A DNA stretch of 45,200 nt from Alphaproteobacteria bacterium. GTDB taxonomy: Bacteria > Pseudomonadota > Alphaproteobacteria > UBA9219 > RGZA01. The stretch spans positions 1-45,200 of the forward strand of contig JAKFVN010000038.1 in assembly GCA_021732145.1 (NCBI GenBank), written 5' to 3'. The notes below the pieces were generated by a model that ran no database searches, was not told the origin of the DNA, and saw only the letters and a list, made by a program, of their open reading frames with translations. The position numbers and the translations under genes are program-made. Positions within the stretch are counted from its first letter, which is position 1; each line of letters opens with the position of its first letter. This document shows, piece after piece, positions 10,810-40,656 of this stretch.

Positions 10810-11793
10810 ATGCCGACCAACGTACAAAATATTGAAGTCACAAGTGATGAAGCGGAGTTGCGCGTCGATCGCTGGTTTCGTCGCCGTTACCCTGGCCTTA
10901 CCCACGGAAAGCTAGAGAAACTGCTGCGTACAGGGCAGGTGCGTGTGGATGGCAAACGCGTGAAAGCCAATGCGCGATTAGAATCTGGGCAGATTGTGCG
11001 CGTCCCGCCCATGAGCGACGACATGCTGGTGCAATCGCAAACGCCGCGCAAGGTTCGCCCAACCGCGCGCGAAGAAAAGAATATCAAAGACAGCATTTTG
11101 TTTGAAGACAAGGACGTGCTGGTGATAAATAAGCCTGCAGGTTTGGCGGTGCAGGGCGGTACGGGTATTTCGCGCCATCTGGATGGATTTTTAACCGCGA
11201 TTTATGAAAACGCAACGCGCCCCAAATTGGTGCATCGCCTCGATAAAGAAACATCCGGCGTATTCGTGCTGGCAAAAAATGATTTTGCGGCAAGTCATCT
11301 CGCTGAAAGTTTCCGCGAACGCACCACGCGCAAATATTATTGGGCATTGGTGCACGGTGTTCCCAAGCCCAAGCAGGGCAAAATCATCATGCCCTTAAGC
11401 AAGGGCAAGGATGGCCGCATGCACCCCGATAAGGCCGAAGGCAAAAACGCCGTGACGCTTTATGAAGTGGTGCAAACAGCATTAAAGGTTTCGTTTGTTG
11501 CGCTATGGCCGCTCACGGGCCGCACACATCAGCTTCGCGCACACATGCATGAAATTGGTGCGCCCATTGTCGGCGATGAGTTGTATTACGATGATGCCAT
11601 TCCCAACATCGACGGGGGCATTGCCATTAAAAAACTGCATTTGCATGCGAGACGGCTGGTCATTCCGCATCCGCGAAAAGGCTTGATTGATATAACGGCG
11701 CCGCTGCCGGAATTGCTCAAAAAAAGCTGGTCTTACTTTGAATTCCCCGAAGACGATGGTGACCCATTTGCTTCTTTTGGCGATGAGTTGTAA
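10810..11793 (+). CDS. RluC/RluD-family 23S rRNA pseudouridine synthase
   Basis: The 327-residue protein isomerises uridine to pseudouridine in 23S rRNA. An S4 RNA-binding domain occupies about 17-75 (LRVDRWFRRRYPGLTHGKLE, then GQVRVDGKRVKAN). The catalytic domain follows, with INKPAGLAVQGG (106-117) and the signature VHRLDKETSGVFVLAK, where Asp145 is the predicted nucleophile. Further family motifs are GRTHQLRAHM and GDELYYDD. RluC (positions 955/2504/2580) is the closest type by domain layout, but the exact target sites cannot be decided from sequence alone. The start is 42 bases from the divergent ldcA start, so both promoters must overlap. asmA follows 34 bases downstream on the same strand. 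Confidence 0.93.
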   Translation: MPTNVQNIEVTSDEAELRVDRWFRRRYPGLTHGKLEKLLRTGQVRVDGKRVKANARLESGQIVRVPPMSDDMLVQSQTPRKVRPTAREEKNIKDSILFEDKDVLVINKPAGLAVQGGTGISRHLDGFLTAIYENATRPKLVHRLDKETSGVFVLAKNDFAASHLAESFRERTTRKYYWALVHGVPKPKQGKIIMPLSKGKDGRMHPDKAEGKNAVTLYEVVQTALKVSFVALWPLTGRTHQLRAHMHEIGAPIVGDELYYDDAIPNIDGGIAIKKLHLHARRLVIPHPRKGLIDITAPLPELLKKSWSYFEFPEDDGDPFASFGDEL

Positions 11794-23151: not shown

Positions 23152-24942
23152 TTATGGCAAAAGTTTATTCCAGGCTGTACCCTTGCGTTCCAGGCTTACC
23201 CAATCATCGTTCCTGGGCATGCCAAAGGCCTGCATGGCTAATTCATCTTGGGGTGCAACCATAACCGCATCATAGCGTTCTGCAAAGCGTTTCACGGCTT
23301 CGGGCGTATTTTCGCCAGTGTAATGGGTTGCATAGCCTGTTAATTCGGGCTGCTGCCGGGGCGATGCCATGAGGCACCATTCAAAGCGTATCATGGTATT
23401 TTCAAGGCCATTGGTCTGCGTTCCAATCAGGCCGACTTTGCCCTGTGGCGGCATTCGCGCAAAAATCACCCGCGCATAATCCCGCGTCGCTTGAATGGAT
23501 GGCAGTGGTTTTTCAAATCCGTTCGATGCAACAAAAATAAGCGCAGCCGCCGGAACCACCAGTACCAGCAGCGAGCCAATGCCGCGCAGCAGCAAGTGGT
23601 ATTCTTCATAACGCGGGCGCAAATACTCCGCGATTTTCAAAACCAAAATCATTACCGCGGCGCATTGCAATTGCGACATGTAACGAAAGAAAGAAGCGGC
23701 GGTCTTAATTTCCCATTCCGAAAAACGGCTGCCGATATAGGCAAGCGTCAGGAATACCCAATGCCCCAGCGCGATAAGCGTAAAGCACATTACCAGCTGG
23801 CGCAGCGGCGTGTGTGGCTTTAATGCCGATGCCGCGCCCCAGCCCATAAGCCCGAATAAAATGGCAAAAAAACCAAACTTATCAATCACGACCAGCCCCA
23901 TCGCGTTGAGCAGATTGGGCAGGAACCACCACTGCCAGTCAGAAAATGGCTTGAAGGTGAAGGCAAGACCCGCCAGATGCTGCGCCTTGTAAAATTCCCA
24001 AAACCCGTTGACGAGCAGCGCAGGCACAATGCTGAGCAGCAGCATTTTTAAAATATGCATCTTGCGGGCTGGCGCGGTGAACCACAAACTGCCGACAGCC
24101 AGCGCCAGCATGAAAATGTTTGCTTGTTTGATTTGCACGAACACGATGGAAAGTAATGCAAAGCTGATGGCATATCCGCGTTCTTGGTTTTGGCAGAATT
24201 GCCAGCCGATATAAACAAGCACGCCCAGCAGCACGGCCGTGGCGTATTCGCCATACGCGCTGAACAATAATGTGACATCCAGCGCGGGGTTAATCAGCGT
24301 GATGGCAAGGAAGATGGCAACGAATAACCGCACTTTCTGCCATTTGTCTTTGGTATTGGGGTTGATTTGCTCACCCAAAAAACCTGCGAATAAAACCAGC
24401 AGCAACACATTCAGCAGCGGGCCTGCAACTTCCACAAATTGCCCGACAATCCACCCCACCGATGAAATGAGCAGCATCAGGCCGTAAGGGTAGGCGGGCC
24501 ATGCGGAATAGGCCACAGGCCCGCCCGCCGCAGGAAAGCGCCCGTATTGAAACAGGAAATGCGCATTGGGCAGCCAGTGCGACATATCATCCCATTCACG
24601 TACGGGGTAATTGCACAGGCCATAAAGCAGCGGGAGCAAAACAATCAGCCCGGCAAAAAATGTGATGGGCAGTGATTTTGTAATGGTGCGGTCTTTTGAA
24701 AACATGAACAGGCCCGCGGCAAACAATACCAGCAGGAATGCAATCATCCCGCCGCCTGCCATCCACGGCGCGAGTGCCAGCATCAATGCAATGCATACTC
24801 CCCAGCCATAGAACGGGTTAAGGGCGGTGTTGTTTTCCTGAATGCCCAGCCATTTCGCGGTGCGCGCGCCAACCATTCCAAAACTAAGAAAAATCAACAC
24901 GCATGCTGCGATGATTTTCAGATTTAAAAGAATGCCATCCAT
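23152..24942 (-). CDS. Polytopic membrane protein, GT-C glycosyltransferase-like
   Basis: The 596-residue protein has about twelve hydrophobic helices in its first 470 residues and a soluble C-terminal region of about 120 residues (from roughly SNGFEKPLPSIQATRDYARV). The first large loop after the early helices reads REWDDMSHWLPNAHFLF, with Asp118-Asp119. An acidic pair in the first periplasmic loop is the hallmark of GT-C glycosyltransferases, which use polyprenyl-linked sugars on the periplasmic side. I did not recognise a named family, so the call rests on topology and that motif. It lies between lptG (6 bases upstream) and surA (17 bases downstream of its stop), which points to a role in lipopolysaccharide or envelope glycan decoration, possibly of lipid A or its core. 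Confidence 0.62.
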   Translation of the reverse strand: MDGILLNLKIIAACVLIFLSFGMVGARTAKWLGIQENNTALNPFYGWGVCIALMLALAPWMAGGGMIAFLLVLFAAGLFMFSKDRTITKSLPITFFAGLIVLLPLLYGLCNYPVREWDDMSHWLPNAHFLFQYGRFPAAGGPVAYSAWPAYPYGLMLLISSVGWIVGQFVEVAGPLLNVLLLVLFAGFLGEQINPNTKDKWQKVRLFVAIFLAITLINPALDVTLLFSAYGEYATAVLLGVLVYIGWQFCQNQERGYAISFALLSIVFVQIKQANIFMLALAVGSLWFTAPARKMHILKMLLLSIVPALLVNGFWEFYKAQHLAGLAFTFKPFSDWQWWFLPNLLNAMGLVVIDKFGFFAILFGLMGWGAASALKPHTPLRQLVMCFTLIALGHWVFLTLAYIGSRFSEWEIKTAASFFRYMSQLQCAAVMILVLKIAEYLRPRYEEYHLLLRGIGSLLVLVVPAAALIFVASNGFEKPLPSIQATRDYARVIFARMPPQGKVGLIGTQTNGLENTMIRFEWCLMASPRQQPELTGYATHYTGENTPEAVKRFAERYDAVMVAPQDELAMQAFGMPRNDDWVSLERKGTAWNKLLP

Positions 24943-32631: not shown

Positions 32632-32684
32632 AAATGGTATGCTATCTATGTAGTTTATCAAAAAACCCGAAAAACGATAAACAA

Positions 32685-33827
32685 ATGATTGAGCAAATTC
32701 AAGGATATGACACATCGGAAGCGGTTAAATATCATTATGGCGCGTTTCCGCCACGTAATCTCAATTATGAAATTTTAGTGCCGCTTATTAGCCGCGCTGC
32801 GGCATCTCTTGCTCGATACGATGCTGTCTTACGTAACCTCCATAATCAGGAACTATTATTGGCTCCTTTGCGTCGTCAAGAAGCAGTTGTTTCTTCCCGC
32901 ATGGAAGGAACGATAGCAACCTTAGAAGAAGTTTTAAAATTTGAAGCAGAAAAAACAGATGGAAATGAAGATAACAATTCTCAATACAGGGCAGAAATCC
33001 TCGAAGTGCATTCATATGCGCGTGCTTTAACGCATGCTCAAAATTTAATGAAAAATGGCCTTTCTATATGCGGCCGCTTAATGAGAGAGACGCACGGTCG
33101 GTTTTTATTTTTAGGCCGTGGCTCAGATAAACAACCGGGTGTTTTTAAGGCAGAACAAAATTATGTTGCAGATAAAATAAAGAAAAAAATATCTTTTATT
33201 CCTGTTAGTCCCGATAAGCTTAATGAAGGGATTACGAGTCTGGAAAATTTTTTGAATGATCAAAAATACGAGCCGCTTATTCAAACTGCCTTGTCGCATG
33301 TGGAATTCGAGGCTTTGCATCCATTTAAAGATGGCAACGGACGTGTTGGAAGAATGCTGGTGACGTTGGGGTTATGGTCAAAAGAATTAATTAGTGCGCC
33401 GCATTTTTACGTCAGTAGCACTATTGAAGAAAATAAAGATGAATATATCGAAAGATTAAGGCTGGTTTCTGCTGACGGGCAGTGGACGGAATGGTGCATG
33501 TTCTTTTTAAATGTTATAGAGAAACAGGCTAAAAAGAATTTAGAAGTAGCAGGAAAAATTGGTGATTTGTACCAGGAAATGAAAACAACCTTCAGAAAAG
33601 AATTGGCATCAAAATGGATTGTGGAGGCCTTAGACTATATTTTTGGAAAACCTGTTTTTAAAAACAGTACTTTTATAGCTAAGACTGGAATACCACCGGC
33701 AACGGTGGCTAGATTTACAAAGGTATTGGCCAATAAAAAGCTTCTTGCTACATTAGAGGAGGCCTCAGGCAGAAGACCTGCACTGTATGCTTTTGAACCT
33801 CTGCTGAAAATAGTGAGGTCTCAATAG
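32685..33827 (+). CDS. Class II Fic-domain AMPylase with C-terminal winged helix
   Basis: Fic enzymes usually transfer AMP to a hydroxyl of a target protein. The 380-residue protein has a Fic_N-type N-terminal region, an N-terminal inhibitory helix motif SSRMEG (Ser70-Glu74-Gly75, the class II arrangement), and the complete active site HPFKDGNGRVGR (212-223) with catalytic His212. The C-terminal 60 or so residues (FIAKTGIPPATVARFTKVLANKKLL, then GRRPALYAFEPLL) read as a winged helix. This is the layout of Shewanella SoFic. I start at ATG 32685 because the upstream ATG 32634 would lie at or before the predicted transcription start. The gene is much more AT-rich than its neighbours (two sampled 60-base lines at 33-35% G+C against 50% in the adjacent dehydrogenase), suggesting acquisition. 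No antitoxin gene adjoins it. Confidence 0.92.
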   Translation: MIEQIQGYDTSEAVKYHYGAFPPRNLNYEILVPLISRAAASLARYDAVLRNLHNQELLLAPLRRQEAVVSSRMEGTIATLEEVLKFEAEKTDGNEDNNSQYRAEILEVHSYARALTHAQNLMKNGLSICGRLMRETHGRFLFLGRGSDKQPGVFKAEQNYVADKIKKKISFIPVSPDKLNEGITSLENFLNDQKYEPLIQTALSHVEFEALHPFKDGNGRVGRMLVTLGLWSKELISAPHFYVSSTIEENKDEYIERLRLVSADGQWTEWCMFFLNVIEKQAKKNLEVAGKIGDLYQEMKTTFRKELASKWIVEALDYIFGKPVFKNSTFIAKTGIPPATVARFTKVLANKKLLATLEEASGRRPALYAFEPLLKIVRSQ

Positions 33828-34064: not shown

Positions 34065-37000
34065 TTAACCAGTCTTACTGGTATCGCTGCCGGTTGGCGG
34101 GGGTGACCCGCCGATTTTTTCGATGCTTTCCGCGATATGGTGCAGACGGATAATGGTGGCCATCACGGTATCAATAAATTCGCGCGACTTATCCGGTGTT
34201 AATGTTTCCACTTCGCCCATTGGGTTGATGAAGCCCGTGCCGTCGGAGGAGAAGCGGTCAAGCATCGTGGAGATGTTTTCAATCTGCTGCTGCAACTGAT
34301 CAAGATTTGCTTTTTCGGAGAAATCAGCGGCGGTTTGAACCGGCGCTGGTGGCGGCGTAATAACTTCAATCACCGTGTTACCATCCACGCGTACGGCGCT
34401 GAGTTTATCGGATGTGCCTTCAAGGCGCTGCGTAATATCGCCCAGCTTGCCAACCACAGTGTCGGAATGGCCTTGCAGCTTACGCATAAGCTGGTCAAGC
34501 GCCTGCGCTGCGGTTTCAACGCGGCTTGCATCCACTGTAACTTGAACAGGTTGGCTGTCTTGTTCTTCAATGCGTTCAAATCCGCTTTCAACCTGCGCGC
34601 CCAGATTTTGCAGGCTGGTGGTGGTTGATTGCACATCCTTCGCCATCGCCTGCAAATCAGACTTTAATTGCAGCAGGTCTTTGGAAAGAACAGCGTCAAT
34701 CGCATATCCCTTTTCCAATCCTTCATGGATGAGGCGCATGGCGGGCACCAGTTCCTCGCCAAGATTAATCGTGGGCGCTGGCGGCGGCGTGTTGGCTTGC
34801 TTTGCCACAGCGGCGGCTGCGGTAATTTGCGCGGAGGTGGCGCTTTCCACCTGTTCCTTAAGCGCATTGATTTTCTCGTCAATGCTGCTATCCACGGTGC
34901 CGATTTGTTCGGCAAGGTTCTTGTAACCGCCGGTGAGCATTTCAACCCAGCGGCTGATCTGCTGGCGCACGCCATCGAATTCTTCTTTAATGCTGCTGAC
35001 GGTATCGGAAAAGCCCGTGCTGATTTCTTCAAACTTCGCCAGCACTTCAGGATTGCTATCAGCGATTGTGCTGGAGGGGGCGGATAGACGAATGCCCTGC
35101 GCTTCACCAAGCGACGGAACAATTTGCCCCAATTGACCCGCAACCGCGCCCAATGTGCCAGTGAGCTGGCTAAGGATGGCAAGGCGCTGCGCCATATCCT
35201 GAACCGAAGCATGCACCGATTGAATCTGTTGTTTGGTGGTTTCCACTACATCCTTATTGCCGCGCAGCAGGCTGGAAGTCGCATCATCAATGCGCAGCGA
35301 CATATTGGCGATTTGCAGATCAAAGTTATTGGCGTTATCGCTGATGCGCTGCGTTTGCATGGTCAGGTTGGTCAGCAGTTTCTCGGTATCCTGCGTGACA
35401 ATCTCCGTGCGCGTATTCATCGCGCGCACATCTTGTTCCAGCGCCGCCAGCAATTGGCGTGATTGCTGCGCATATACCGACCATTCATCGCGCAGCTGGG
35501 TTTGCAGCGTATTGCTGGAATCCTTAAGCTGCTCGAAAATCGGCGCGGTTTCGGTGATGTTGGTCTTCCATTCATTGCTGAAGCTTGAATACTCATCGCG
35601 GATGGATGTCAGGATGCGTGCCAGCATTTCGGTATGGCCGCTCATGTTTTCGAGAGAGCCCTTCATCAATTCATGCGCTTCGTTCAACTGGGTGGATGCC
35701 TTGCCGATGGACTCACCGCTTTCATCAATGCGGCGGAAGGCAGACGCGCTCTTTTCTTCGAACAATGCCATGCGGCCATCAAACGTGTTCATGGTCTCGG
35801 ATGCGTGAACGGCGCTGCGCGATACATCTTCCAGTAGGCTGGTGATCCGATCGGTCTTTTCTTCCGTGTCGCCAAGGAATGCGCGGATGGCCTGGTCATG
35901 GCTCGACACGCTGTTAATCGCTTCGTTAAGGCGCGTGCGCGCGGTTTCGGTTGTTTCCTGCATAACCTTGCCGCTGGCACGCAGCAGATTGGTGGCGGAT
36001 TGCAGCTTCTCGGTCAGGTCTTTGGCTTGATTGCTGAAGGTCGTGCTGGCTTCAAGGCTTTGCTTCGCAGCTGTCTTAATGTCGCGGTCAGATGTGCTGA
36101 GCAATTGCAGGGTTTGCGCAACGCGCGCACCCGTTGCGCCGGCAATCTGGTTGAGCGATTGCATGTCTTTCGAAAACTGATCGACAATTTGCTTGGCCTG
36201 GCCTTGAATTTGATTGTTCTGGTGGAAGAGGGTAGAAAGCTTTTCGCCCCATTCATTGGTCGTCGCGTTCATCTGCGATCCGGCATCGGCAATCGTCGTG
36301 CTCAAATTCTTATTCGCATCCGCAATAGTGGTGCTGATGTTCTTGTTGGCATCGGCAACGGTTTCCTTGATGTGGGTGCGCGCATCCCTGATTTGCGCGT
36401 TCACGCTGGAAATGGCGTCTTCCAATGAACGGGTCTGGCGCGATGTCAAATCGCCCAATTCCAAAATGCTTTCCTGCCCGTCCTTGCTCACGGTTGCGAG
36501 GGTCGCGCTGTGCTGCGTCAGGTGTTCAACGGTCTTTTGCAAATCGGCAATCAACGTTGCAAAGACTGCTGCGCTGCGGCCTTCAAACCGCACATGCTGC
36601 GCGCCGGTGTCGGTTTCAACCACCATATCGGCAAGGTTCACCGTGCCCTTGCGGATATCGGCAATGCTGCGCGCCAGGCTTCCAAATGCATCGTTGCGGT
36701 CAAGGCCCCAGATGTGGCCGTTCAAATCATTTTCCAATAATTGACGGCTGCTGCGCTCTAATTTTCTCAGCGGCAATAATAATCCAAAACGGAATGCTAA
36801 AAAGGCAAGCAGTGAAAAAACCACAAGGCCGGATGCACAAATTGAAATGAGCTGATAAAGCTGACGATAGCTATCGGTAATTTGTGCAAGCTTCATGCGG
36901 TCTTGCTGCACATCGATTTCTGCCTTGTCTTGGTCGGCATAGCTGTGCGATTTGATGCGTTCATCCCACATGGTTTGCAATGTGTTCACTGCATCACGCG

Positions 37001-37136
37001 TGGTTTTTTCATTTTGAATGGCAGTAAGGCCAAGGAAGCAGGCGAATCCAACGGCAATTACCAACCCTGCAAGACCTATTAAGAGTGGCGGATTCGTCTT
37101 GGCAGGTGGCAAGCGTGTTTGTTTCGATAAAGACAT
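34065..37136 (-). CDS. Large two-TM HAMP coiled-coil protein without a chemoreceptor tip
   Basis: The 1023-residue protein has a membrane helix at about 17-40, a short periplasmic part of about 55 residues, a second helix at about 94-121 and a HAMP-like segment at about 116-165 (LPLRKLERSSRQLLENDLNG, then NDAFGSLARSIADIRK). After that come about 800 cytoplasmic residues of heptad-rich, Gln/Ser/Thr/Asp-rich sequence broken by short Pro stretches (NTPPPAPTI near 800, TPPPAPV near 945). It looks like a chemoreceptor at the N-terminus, but I cannot find the conserved methyl-accepting hairpin tip, so it probably does not drive CheA. Function unknown. A scaffold or a sensor with a long cytoplasmic rod fits what is visible. 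It follows the J-domain gene by 109 bases and has a DnaA box on its candidate promoter. Confidence 0.82.
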   Translation of the reverse strand: MSLSKQTRLPPAKTNPPLLIGLAGLVIAVGFACFLGLTAIQNEKTTRDAVNTLQTMWDERIKSHSYADQDKAEIDVQQDRMKLAQITDSYRQLYQLISICASGLVVFSLLAFLAFRFGLLLPLRKLERSSRQLLENDLNGHIWGLDRNDAFGSLARSIADIRKGTVNLADMVVETDTGAQHVRFEGRSAAVFATLIADLQKTVEHLTQHSATLATVSKDGQESILELGDLTSRQTRSLEDAISSVNAQIRDARTHIKETVADANKNISTTIADANKNLSTTIADAGSQMNATTNEWGEKLSTLFHQNNQIQGQAKQIVDQFSKDMQSLNQIAGATGARVAQTLQLLSTSDRDIKTAAKQSLEASTTFSNQAKDLTEKLQSATNLLRASGKVMQETTETARTRLNEAINSVSSHDQAIRAFLGDTEEKTDRITSLLEDVSRSAVHASETMNTFDGRMALFEEKSASAFRRIDESGESIGKASTQLNEAHELMKGSLENMSGHTEMLARILTSIRDEYSSFSNEWKTNITETAPIFEQLKDSSNTLQTQLRDEWSVYAQQSRQLLAALEQDVRAMNTRTEIVTQDTEKLLTNLTMQTQRISDNANNFDLQIANMSLRIDDATSSLLRGNKDVVETTKQQIQSVHASVQDMAQRLAILSQLTGTLGAVAGQLGQIVPSLGEAQGIRLSAPSSTIADSNPEVLAKFEEISTGFSDTVSSIKEEFDGVRQQISRWVEMLTGGYKNLAEQIGTVDSSIDEKINALKEQVESATSAQITAAAAVAKQANTPPPAPTINLGEELVPAMRLIHEGLEKGYAIDAVLSKDLLQLKSDLQAMAKDVQSTTTSLQNLGAQVESGFERIEEQDSQPVQVTVDASRVETAAQALDQLMRKLQGHSDTVVGKLGDITQRLEGTSDKLSAVRVDGNTVIEVITPPPAPVQTAADFSEKANLDQLQQQIENISTMLDRFSSDGTGFINPMGEVETLTPDKSREFIDTVMATIIRLHHIAESIEKIGGSPPPTGSDTSKTG
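36264..36362 (-). repeat. Three 33-base tandem repeats inside the coiled-coil gene
   Basis: Residues 259-291 are three 11-residue units: TVADANKNIST, TIADANKNLST and TIADAGSQMNA. The first two differ by two conservative changes and the third has decayed. An 11-residue period is a hendecad, compatible with a right-handed or straight coiled coil. The DNA copies are similarly alike, so this is a recent internal duplication. Confidence 0.8.
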
Positions 37137-37227: not shown

Positions 37228-37251
37228 GCCTGAAATGTTCTTGCTTCAGGC
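37228..37251 (-). repeat. Hairpin across the J-domain gene stop codon
   Basis: GCCTGAA (37228-37234) and TTCAGGC (37245-37251) are perfect inverted arms around a 10-base loop. The structure spans the TGA of the J-domain gene. No T-run follows on the minus strand, so termination is doubtful and read-through into the coiled-coil gene is possible. Confidence 0.42.
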
Positions 37252-38310
37252 ACGTTTCAGGATGGCATCATCCCAACGGGTCACGCCGCGCTGAATGCGC
37301 ATAAGCGGGGTTTGGCGCAGCGTTTGATGGTCGCAGCGTAACCATTGCTTATCCGGATTGTTTTCATGGCCATTGTTTTGCTGAGCCGCCAGGCGGGTGA
37401 GGTAACGATACGATTGTGTGAGACGAACCATCACATCGTTTGAACCTGTGTTATTTGTGCTGCCCCCTGAATTATCCGGGTGCAAATTCTTGACCCGCGC
37501 GCGATAGGCATTTTTGACCTCGGTCATGCGCGCAACTGCGCCAATTCCTAAATCGCGGCACGCCTGTTTTACAACCTGACGGTCAGGCAGTTTCACTTCC
37601 ACGCGCGCGAAGTTGCAGGCGGGCAACGGGCCGGTCAACCGCATATCCAGGCGGCCGCGGCATTCCTTGTCCATTTGCTGAAGGATGCTCACAACGCGTT
37701 CTTCCTGATGCGCTTCAATCAGCAGAATAGCCTGCAACACTACATCATTATCGTTGTTCTCAAGAATGATAATGTCCTGCAAATGGCGCTGCAATTGCAG
37801 CAGCATCTGGTCACGCAACGAACGGCGTTCATTTTCAATCGCATTAGCCGTTGCGCCGTTTTTCGGGAAACGCGCCATTAATTGCTGCATCGTCGCGCTG
37901 TCCCAGCGCACGACCAGCGAAAACTGGCGCGATGTGCCGTACTTGCCCAGCAAATCCACGATATCACGTTGGTGATATGCCAATGCCTGCACGATGGATG
38001 ATTGGTGTTGGAACACGCTGTCAAATGATGCGGGAATAATCTTGCCCAACGCGGTAACCGCGCCCAAAATGCGGTGATAATGCATCAGGCGTTGCAGCTT
38101 CACATGGTCGGTATCATTCCAGGGCCAGTTGTGCGGTTCCTGACCCACCAGTGCATGGAGCATGCCGTTGGAAATAACCATCACTTCCTGATCGCCGATT
38201 TTGCCGCCATTCTTTTTCAACGTCATGCAGCCTTCGTCATCGGTGAAGCCGAACACGCGCAGCGTATTTTGCAAAAGACCGCCAGTAAGATTGTCGGTAA
38301 GATTATTCAT
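37246..38310 (-). CDS. GvpL/GvpF-like protein with C-terminal J-domain
   Basis: The last third contains a recognisable J-domain: helix II TEVKNAYRARVKN, the diagnostic HPD at 277-279, a Ser/Asn-rich loop, and helix III RLTQSYRYLTRLA. J-domains recruit and stimulate Hsp70 (DnaK). The first 240 residues resemble gas-vesicle GvpL/GvpF proteins: LRVFGF near 17-22, VMVISNGMLHALVGQEP near 43-59, HYHRILGAVTALGKIIPASFD near 77-97, and RLTGPLPACNFARVEV at 224-239, which parallels the GvpF/L ending R-L-T-G-P-x-P-x-Y-N-F. No gvpA or other gas-vesicle gene is in the window. The J-domain call is firm; the GvpL/F call is from memory of family motifs. The gene is flanked upstream by an inverted DnaA-box pair and downstream by the coiled-coil gene. 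Confidence 0.78.
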   Translation of the reverse strand: MNNLTDNLTGGLLQNTLRVFGFTDDEGCMTLKKNGGKIGDQEVMVISNGMLHALVGQEPHNWPWNDTDHVKLQRLMHYHRILGAVTALGKIIPASFDSVFQHQSSIVQALAYHQRDIVDLLGKYGTSRQFSLVVRWDSATMQQLMARFPKNGATANAIENERRSLRDQMLLQLQRHLQDIIILENNDNDVVLQAILLIEAHQEERVVSILQQMDKECRGRLDMRLTGPLPACNFARVEVKLPDRQVVKQACRDLGIGAVARMTEVKNAYRARVKNLHPDNSGGSTNNTGSNDVMVRLTQSYRYLTRLAAQQNNGHENNPDKQWLRCDHQTLRQTPLMRIQRGVTRWDDAILKRA

Positions 38311-38439: not shown

Positions 38440-38459
38440 AAAACCCTGTTAAACAGGGT
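38440..38459 (-). terminator. Intrinsic terminator overlapping the histidine kinase stop codon
   Basis: On the minus strand ACCCTGT-TTA-ACAGGGT forms a 7-pair hairpin immediately followed by TTTT. The TAA stop of the kinase gene lies inside the loop and stem. It would end the kinase transcript before the DnaA boxes, making the J-domain gene a separate unit. Confidence 0.6.
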
Positions 38460-40656
38460 CGATATTAATCGATTTAAAGCGCTCATTCAGCGCGGCGATG
38501 GCGGTTTTAACCTGTGCTGGCCATGCGCTTAATGCAGCATCATCGGCTTTGTCATTTTCTTTGCACTGCGTCTCAATCTGCGCCGCAAGTTGCGATAAGC
38601 GACCCAGCCCAAAACTTAACGTGCTGCTTTTCATGGAATGCGCGTGGCGTTTTACTTCATCCCATCGTTGGGCTTTGGCGGCATCCAGCATCGCGGTGCT
38701 GGTCGCCATCAAATCCGCGTGAAAGTTTTTTGAAAACGCGCCAATCATCTCCGTGCCCAAATCTTCAACGATTTGGTTGAAGTGCTCTTCGCTGATTTCA
38801 GGGCTGACCTCATCATCCATATTATCCGGGGCAGAGGGGGATTGCTGTTTGTCGGCCATGCTGCCTTTTCCCGCCCACAGCGTTACGCGCTGCTGCAATA
38901 CCTCCTTCGATAATGGCTTGGTGATATAGTCGTTCATGCCAATCGCCAGACACTCTTCGCGGTCGCCGCGCATGGCATGCGCAGTCATGGCGACAATCGG
39001 CATGTTCTTTCTGCCCGGCAATGCGCGTATGGCTTTGGTGGCAGCAAAACCATCCATCTCCGGCATCGCGATATCCATGAACACCACGTCGTAATTTTTT
39101 GCCGCAGCCGCCGCGACGGCTTTCCTGCCGTTATCCACCACATCTACCTTATGGCCGATTTGTTTCAAGAATGCTTCGGCAATCATCTGGTTGGTGGGGT
39201 TATCTTCCACCAGCAATACATGTGCGATGATGGTTTTATCGGCAAGGGGTTGCGCGGCATCCTGATCAATCACCGCTTGTGTTGCGGATGTGAGCGGGAT
39301 GGCAAACCAGAAGGTGCTGCCCTTGCCAACTGCGCTTTCAACGCCAACGTCGCCGCGCATCATGTCGGTTAAGCGGCGGCAAATCGCAAGGCCAAGGCCC
39401 GTTCCCGCAAAACGCCGCGTATAGGAACCATCCACCTGGCTGAATTCGCGGAACAAATGGCTTTTGGACTCTTCGCTAATGCCCATGCCGGTGTCAATCA
39501 CTTCAAAGCGCAGCATCGGCATGCGCGCGCCGGAAACCATCTTGCTGTCTTCTTTCACCAGCAGCGTCACGCCGCCCTTATCGGTGAATTTGATGGCGTT
39601 GGAGAGAAAGTTCAGGAGGATTTGCCGCAGCCGCGCCGGATCGGAATAAAGATTGAGCGGAATGCTGTCTTGAATGCTGTAGTTCAACTGCAATTTCTTA
39701 TCATCCGCCAGCGGGCGGATAAGGCCGAACAGGTTATCAAGCAGCGTCTTGATATTAAAATCGGAATACTCCAGTTCCAATTTTCCTGCTTCAATCTTGG
39801 AATAATCCAATACGTCATTCACAATCACCAGCAGGCTTTCGGCAGAGCCCTGCACAATGCCCGTCAGGTTACGCTGGTTTTCTTCCAGCTTGGTGTTCCG
39901 CAATAAGGTGATTGTTCCCAATATACCATTAATCGGCGTTCTAATCTCATGGCTCATCATCGCAAAGAAGCTATTCTTCAAACGCTCCGCCTGATTGGCG
40001 CGTTCCAGCAATTCGCCGCGGCGAAACAAGTCGACCAGCAAAAAGACAATCATTGTCGTGCCAATCACCACGAAGACCACGCTGATGGCCAGCAAGTACC
40101 GTTCCTTGTCGCGCAGCTCCGCCAAAATGCCGTCGATTTTCTTGCGATGGAAATACTGGGTAATTTTATCAATGTCGTAAAAATGCGAAGCGGCATCATG
40201 CAGCAGCGCCGAAAGCTGCCTGTTGCTTGCGGAACTTTGCAGCCCGTTCTTGGCTTTTATGCCTTTCATGCCGTCAAGCGTTGTGTAAATGCTGACGAAG
40301 TTCTGCGTCAAATCATTTGAATCAACGCCGGCCAGTTGGCCCTGTTGCAGGGAGGTAAGCTTGTCCTTGAGCATCAAAAGCCTTTTGTCAAACTGTTCGC
40401 TCTTTTCCTCGGCCCTTAATCCTTCGTTGTCCAGCAGGATATCCAGATGCGTGATGATTTCCTGAATATCCGATAATTCGCGCGGCAGGTTTTCGCGGTT
40501 GATGGTTTCAATCAGCGCAATGCGTTTTCCGTTCTGGTGAAACGAATAAATGTTCAGTGCCATGAACCCGGCAAGGAATACCACCGCAAACACGATGCTG
40601 GTGCGGGGCAGGCTGTTATGCCGTGAAAAAATAATCTTGGAAATTTCCTGAAGCAT
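38449..40656 (-). CDS. Tripartite hybrid sensor histidine kinase
   Basis: The 735-residue protein has membrane helices at about 19-39 and 188-210 enclosing a helical periplasmic sensor of about 150 residues. Then come the HisKA domain with FFAMMSHEIRTPINGIL (His236), the ATPase domain (NFLSNAIKFTDKG; DTGMGIS; GTGLGLAI), a receiver domain (LLVEDNPTNQMIA; phospho-acceptor Asp528 in FMDIAMPEMDG; Lys580) and a C-terminal Hpt domain (HAHSMKSS, His673). This is the BarA/ArcB-type phosphorelay plan, needing a separate final response regulator, which is not in the window. No HAMP or PAS segment is evident. The ligand is unknown. It is upstream of, and co-oriented with, the J-domain and coiled-coil genes, but a terminator separates them. 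Confidence 0.94.
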   Translation of the reverse strand: MLQEISKIIFSRHNSLPRTSIVFAVVFLAGFMALNIYSFHQNGKRIALIETINRENLPRELSDIQEIITHLDILLDNEGLRAEEKSEQFDKRLLMLKDKLTSLQQGQLAGVDSNDLTQNFVSIYTTLDGMKGIKAKNGLQSSASNRQLSALLHDAASHFYDIDKITQYFHRKKIDGILAELRDKERYLLAISVVFVVIGTTMIVFLLVDLFRRGELLERANQAERLKNSFFAMMSHEIRTPINGILGTITLLRNTKLEENQRNLTGIVQGSAESLLVIVNDVLDYSKIEAGKLELEYSDFNIKTLLDNLFGLIRPLADDKKLQLNYSIQDSIPLNLYSDPARLRQILLNFLSNAIKFTDKGGVTLLVKEDSKMVSGARMPMLRFEVIDTGMGISEESKSHLFREFSQVDGSYTRRFAGTGLGLAICRRLTDMMRGDVGVESAVGKGSTFWFAIPLTSATQAVIDQDAAQPLADKTIIAHVLLVEDNPTNQMIAEAFLKQIGHKVDVVDNGRKAVAAAAAKNYDVVFMDIAMPEMDGFAATKAIRALPGRKNMPIVAMTAHAMRGDREECLAIGMNDYITKPLSKEVLQQRVTLWAGKGSMADKQQSPSAPDNMDDEVSPEISEEHFNQIVEDLGTEMIGAFSKNFHADLMATSTAMLDAAKAQRWDEVKRHAHSMKSSTLSFGLGRLSQLAAQIETQCKENDKADDAALSAWPAQVKTAIAALNERFKSINIDPV

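Follow-up and report, generated by a model that had tools for sequence, protein, structure and literature searches.

A GvpL/GvpF protein fused to a J-domain in alphaproteobacteria without detectable gvpA: a putative co-chaperone of gas-vesicle ancestry

Why would a bacterium in which no gas-vesicle shell gene can be detected keep a gas-vesicle accessory protein, and keep it joined to a J-domain? This question is raised by a gene on contig JAKFVN010000038.1 of an alphaproteobacterial genome (GCA_021732145.1; UBA9219, RGZA01), within a stretch of 45,200 nucleotides that we refer to as the window. An earlier note, made from the letters of the window, had described the product as a GvpL/GvpF-like region fused to a J-domain, and had proposed that such a protein could assemble or disaggregate some other protein shell or filament with the help of Hsp70. 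The open reading frame, its coordinates, its motifs and the place of the HPD triplet are all exactly as that note gave them (Table 1). In this protein, hereafter GvpL-J, the GvpL/GvpF domain comes first, followed by the C-terminal J-domain and then by a conserved tail.

Table 1. Features of the GvpL-J locus, in positions of the window.
Feature	Position	Strand	Evidence or remarks
GvpL-J protein	37246..38310	-	354 aa, ATG start, stop included; purifying selection
GvpL/GvpF domain, residues 19-235	37606..38256	-	PF06386 E 4.1e-23; fold matches to GvpF 6l5d/4qsg
J-domain, about residues 244-311, helices I, II and III	37378..37581	-	PF00226 E 1.7e-4 (below cut-off); predicted helices; J-domain fold matches
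HPD motif, residues 277-279	37474..37482	-	Conserved without change in all seven gvpA-less copies that have a J-domain; also seen in three copies from gas-vesicle clusters
C-terminal tail, about residues 318-342, motif RxDxxxLxxTxxxxxxR	37285..37359	-	Invariant residues in two families; tail dN/dS ~0.01
Downstream neighbour of 1023 aa, with a long coiled coil and two TM segments; candidate partner or client	34065..37136	-	Adjoins GvpL-J in 4/5 family genomes; two TM windows
Upstream neighbour, hybrid sensor kinase (HisKA-HATPase-REC-Hpt)	38449..40656	-	Pfam

The region that precedes the J-domain is a GvpL/GvpF domain. The PF06386 profile matches it with 83.1 bits, against a curated cut-off of 23.6 bits, and the match covers profile positions 4-244 of 245. 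Fold comparison agrees with this result, even though the full-length model has low confidence (pLDDT 41, from an alignment of only three sequences), as does the N-terminal half of the GvpL domain within it. The top three PDB matches that Foldseek returned for the GvpL part were GvpF (6l5d/4qsg, E 1.5e-7 to 3e-7), and in VIA residues 120-235 gave a Z of 13.6 with GvpF versus 8.5 with the next protein. Profile and fold matches together rule out a chance resemblance; the profile search and structure prediction for which the earlier note had called thus bore out its assignment. A profile search of the same genome found this as its single GvpL/F gene. In f1, the family of the window genome, some hallmark residues of GvpL/F are changed (Ser instead of Arg at 95, Ala-Cys instead of Pro-Tyr at 231-232), so the client-binding surface of this domain may differ. 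The protein therefore resembles the GvpL/GvpF of gas-vesicle clusters in a full-length homologous domain and in fold, and departs from them in these residues, in its fused J-domain and in the lack of gvpA in its genome.

As judged from motif and predicted structure, the J-domain is real, though weak against the Pfam profile. The window copy scores 22.0 bits with DnaJ (PF00226), under the curated cut-off of 27.8 bits; orthologues without gvpA reach 24-27 bits, and homologues from gas-vesicle clusters reach 28-34 bits and pass it. A model restricted to the J part and the tail predicts helices I, II and III around the HPD (pLDDT roughly 75-87), with the HPD between helices II and III as expected of a J-domain. 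Its best fold matches are J-domains, with a probability of up to 1.0 and E no better than 0.055. Hence, of the good J-domain that had been claimed, the HPD, the helices and the fold hold up, while the profile score does not reach that wording. In the tail, residues R325, D327, L331, T334 and R341 are invariant among seven sequences from two families.

The shell gene itself was sought genome-wide. No gvpA (PF00741) was found in the window genome (2.09 Mb, 54 contigs, 100% complete), in the other four genomes of f1, or in three of the four genomes of a second family, f118; the same search returned three matches each in G277 and G373, two cluster-bearing genomes that served as positive controls. 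On this gvpA search, which was effective in the controls, a hidden gas-vesicle cluster was rejected, and the absence of gvpA that the earlier note had read from the window extends to the whole genome. A shell gene of the gvpA type, which a GvpL/GvpF protein at work in gas-vesicle assembly would have in its own genome, was accordingly not found here. Among the window genes scanned with Pfam, which are ordinary housekeeping and envelope genes, no gvpN, gvpG, gvpK or gvpO was seen. Elsewhere in the window, a 596-aa ORF (23152-24942, minus strand) with no significant Pfam match lies between surA and an lptF/lptG-type gene, at the place expected for lptD, and a Fic/DOC-family protein (32634-33827, plus strand) adjoins a tRNA-Val gene.

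GvpL-J is present in all five f1 genomes and in none of the 28 other genomes of the order. In a class-wide sample, only 7 of 385 genomes carry any GvpL/F: G277 and G373, which have gas-vesicle clusters with gvpA; G292, with three GvpL/F genes as neighbours; G000; and three members of f118. The gene occurs in 4/4 f118 genomes, which represent the whole of that family's order in our genome set, and two of them (G250 and G338) keep the GvpL domain and lack the J-domain. Two f118 genomes have J-less GvpL proteins that neighbour Tad-pilus genes (L047:9542-10465 and L048:1355-2221).

The fusion is also a member of true gas-vesicle clusters, a fact that the earlier note had missed. GvpL-J proteins with the HPD are encoded inside the gvpA-bearing cluster of G277 (L046:9160-10404), close to further GvpL/F genes in G489 (L096:1207-2352), and on plasmid pOA238_160 of Octadecabacter arcticus (L099:8779-9861, WP_015497776.1), among gvpA, gvpN, gvpG, gvpO and gvpK. 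The fusion, whose conservation across alphaproteobacteria had been proposed earlier as a check, was seen in 5/5 f1 genomes, two f118 genomes and these three. Its presence in five family genomes and in the finished Octadecabacter sequence rules out that it is unique to the window genome or an artefact of a MAG. A phage origin was likewise rejected, no relative having been found in viral contigs. Among other plasmid records, only Octadecabacter matched across the J part in a first search; a Spartinivicinus plasmid match from a second search (92% coverage) was set aside, as it spans a GvpL/F gene plus an annotated GvpG and has no J-domain by annotation. The published description of the Octadecabacter gas-vesicle cluster does not mention DnaJ (PMC3646047), and no paper on a fusion of this kind came up in full-text searches of an open library that paired GvpL or GvpF with DnaJ or J-domain. 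Irregular frames were noted in two genomes. G373 has a similar but frame-broken GvpL-J-like gene, and several gvpL/F frames are broken within its gas-vesicle cluster (L049), through either decay or assembly error. In G007, the GvpL-J frame lacks its final residues and continues into the beginning of the coiled-coil gene (L002, ~10978-10993), through a deletion of ~150 bp relative to G008 or an assembly error.

In a tree built solely from the GvpL domain, excluding the J part, the J-bearing cluster proteins fall together with the gvpA-less copies (support 87/82), and the latter form one group that covers f1 and f118 (support 92/95). In AU tests, a topology that placed the gvpA-less copies outside the cluster sequences was not rejected (p-AU 0.25), and one that united only f1 with the cluster sequences was rejected (p-AU 0.0003). 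The J-domain tree, from a short alignment, did not join the two sets, and a single clade was not rejected (p-AU 0.31). Altogether, the grouping of the gvpA-less copies with cluster GvpL-J has moderate support. Cluster GvpL-J, the nearest group in the GvpL-domain tree, shares the order of GvpL followed by J with its HPD; those proteins sit among gvp genes, whereas the window protein is encoded by itself and extends into a further conserved tail. Since the J-less G250 and G338 fall inside the gvpA-less group, loss of the J-domain is the simplest reading for both. On the sequence comparisons, the fusion is older than the window locus. As it belongs to true gas-vesicle clusters elsewhere, it most likely served gas-vesicle assembly at first.

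GvpL-J is kept under strong purifying selection. Between the window genome and G008, the nearest species (95% identical), its dN/dS is 0.036, equal to that of PriA in the same comparison (0.036), with a value of ~0.01 for the J-domain as for the tail. The coiled-coil neighbour gene is under strong purifying selection as well.

What, then, could such a protein do? J-domains stimulate the ATPase of Hsp70. The class C co-chaperones of the DnaJ/Hsp40 family have no G/F or zinc domains, and some, such as DjlA, carry a C-terminal J-domain. GvpL-J likewise joins an HPD J-domain, at its C-terminal side, to an unrelated domain; it differs from them in that its client part is GvpL/F and its J-domain is weak against the general profile. 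On the gas-vesicle side, GvpF binds the shell protein and has been proposed as its chaperone (PMC11445434), and GvpL serves the nucleation complex as a platform to which most other Gvp proteins bind (PMC9501494). Combined with Hsp70 stimulation by the J-domain, these roles suggest a client-specific co-chaperone that would hand its client to DnaK.

We therefore favour, as the probable though by no means secure explanation, that a gas-vesicle co-chaperone outlived gas vesicles and now delivers another client to DnaK. The ancestor of GvpL-J would be the GvpL-J accessory protein found in gas-vesicle clusters of alphaproteobacteria; the gene would have been retained after the rest of the cluster vanished, or would have moved without the rest. 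Just as GvpF binds GvpA, the GvpL domain most likely binds a client that is hydrophobic and prone to aggregate. The C-terminal J-domain, with its HPD, would stimulate DnaK, DnaK would take the client over, and the client would thereby stay soluble until its arrival at the membrane or assembly site. The first candidate for this client would be the two-TM coiled-coil protein encoded next to GvpL-J. A chaperone with a GvpL/F part and a link to Hsp70, acting on a client other than GvpA as the earlier note had it, is still the best reading, and both domains, their fusion and the lack of gvpA stand. Nothing that we found indicates a particular shell or filament of the kind that it had suggested.

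The neighbourhood offers two more specific explanations. GvpL-J could be a dedicated co-chaperone or scaffold for the assembly of the coiled-coil membrane protein, an explanation that we consider unlikely. The two genes lie on the same strand with a gap of 109 bp, adjoin each other in 4/5 f1 genomes and are both under strong purifying selection. However, homologues of the coiled-coil protein are found in 29/33 genomes of the order, and GvpL-J is lacking from nearly all of these; in G006 the pair is split between two contigs, GvpL-J being in the middle of its own, and the f118 neighbourhood is altogether different. The coiled-coil protein itself has no Pfam match over cut-off, weak SMC- and ZorA-like similarity, and no sequence match in the PDB. 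The hybrid sensor kinase also adjoins GvpL-J in G008 and G006, and not in G007.

In f118, Tad-pilus genes stand beside the GvpL gene in 3/4 genomes: the gene adjoins TadE-like pseudopilin genes in G413, and a pilus-formation N-terminal protein plus a Tad cluster in G250 and G338. Together with the presence of the Tad gene RcpC in 4/5 f1 genomes, this arrangement would fit an accessory of Tad/Flp pilus assembly that chaperones hydrophobic pilins. We regard such a role as rather improbable, because RcpC lies on another contig in the window genome, no RcpC match was found in G008, which is the closest relative and has GvpL-J, most tested members of the order have RcpC without GvpL-J, and the f118 genome G147 has no Tad gene on its 12-kb contig. 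RcpC showed no correlation with GvpL-J in the order of the window genome, which leaves Tad dependence unsupported as a general rule. Linkage to either the coiled-coil gene or the f118 pilus genes is suggestive only. That GvpL-J is a functionless, fading relic of a lost gas-vesicle cluster, as its ancestry and the lack of gvpA might imply, is hardly credible and already disfavoured by the selection data, given the low dN/dS, the intact ORFs and the presence of the gene in all sampled members of two families.

Returning to the co-chaperone that outlived gas vesicles, it is conceivable, and we propose it tentatively, that alphaproteobacteria recruited an Hsp70-coupled gas-vesicle assembly chaperone once, for building or maintaining an unrelated envelope structure. 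Its descendants would then form a distinct, client-specific family of J-proteins with a C-terminal tail of their own. Our results also suggest that Hsp70 participates in the assembly of gas vesicles in alphaproteobacteria, since a gas-vesicle protein encoded in known clusters has the J-domain as an integral part. The two J-less members of f118 separate the roles of the GvpL and J halves. The gvpA-less lineage, in turn, would be a natural example in which an assembly chaperone has survived the structure that it served, and could be used to ask what the GvpL/F domain recognises without GvpA.
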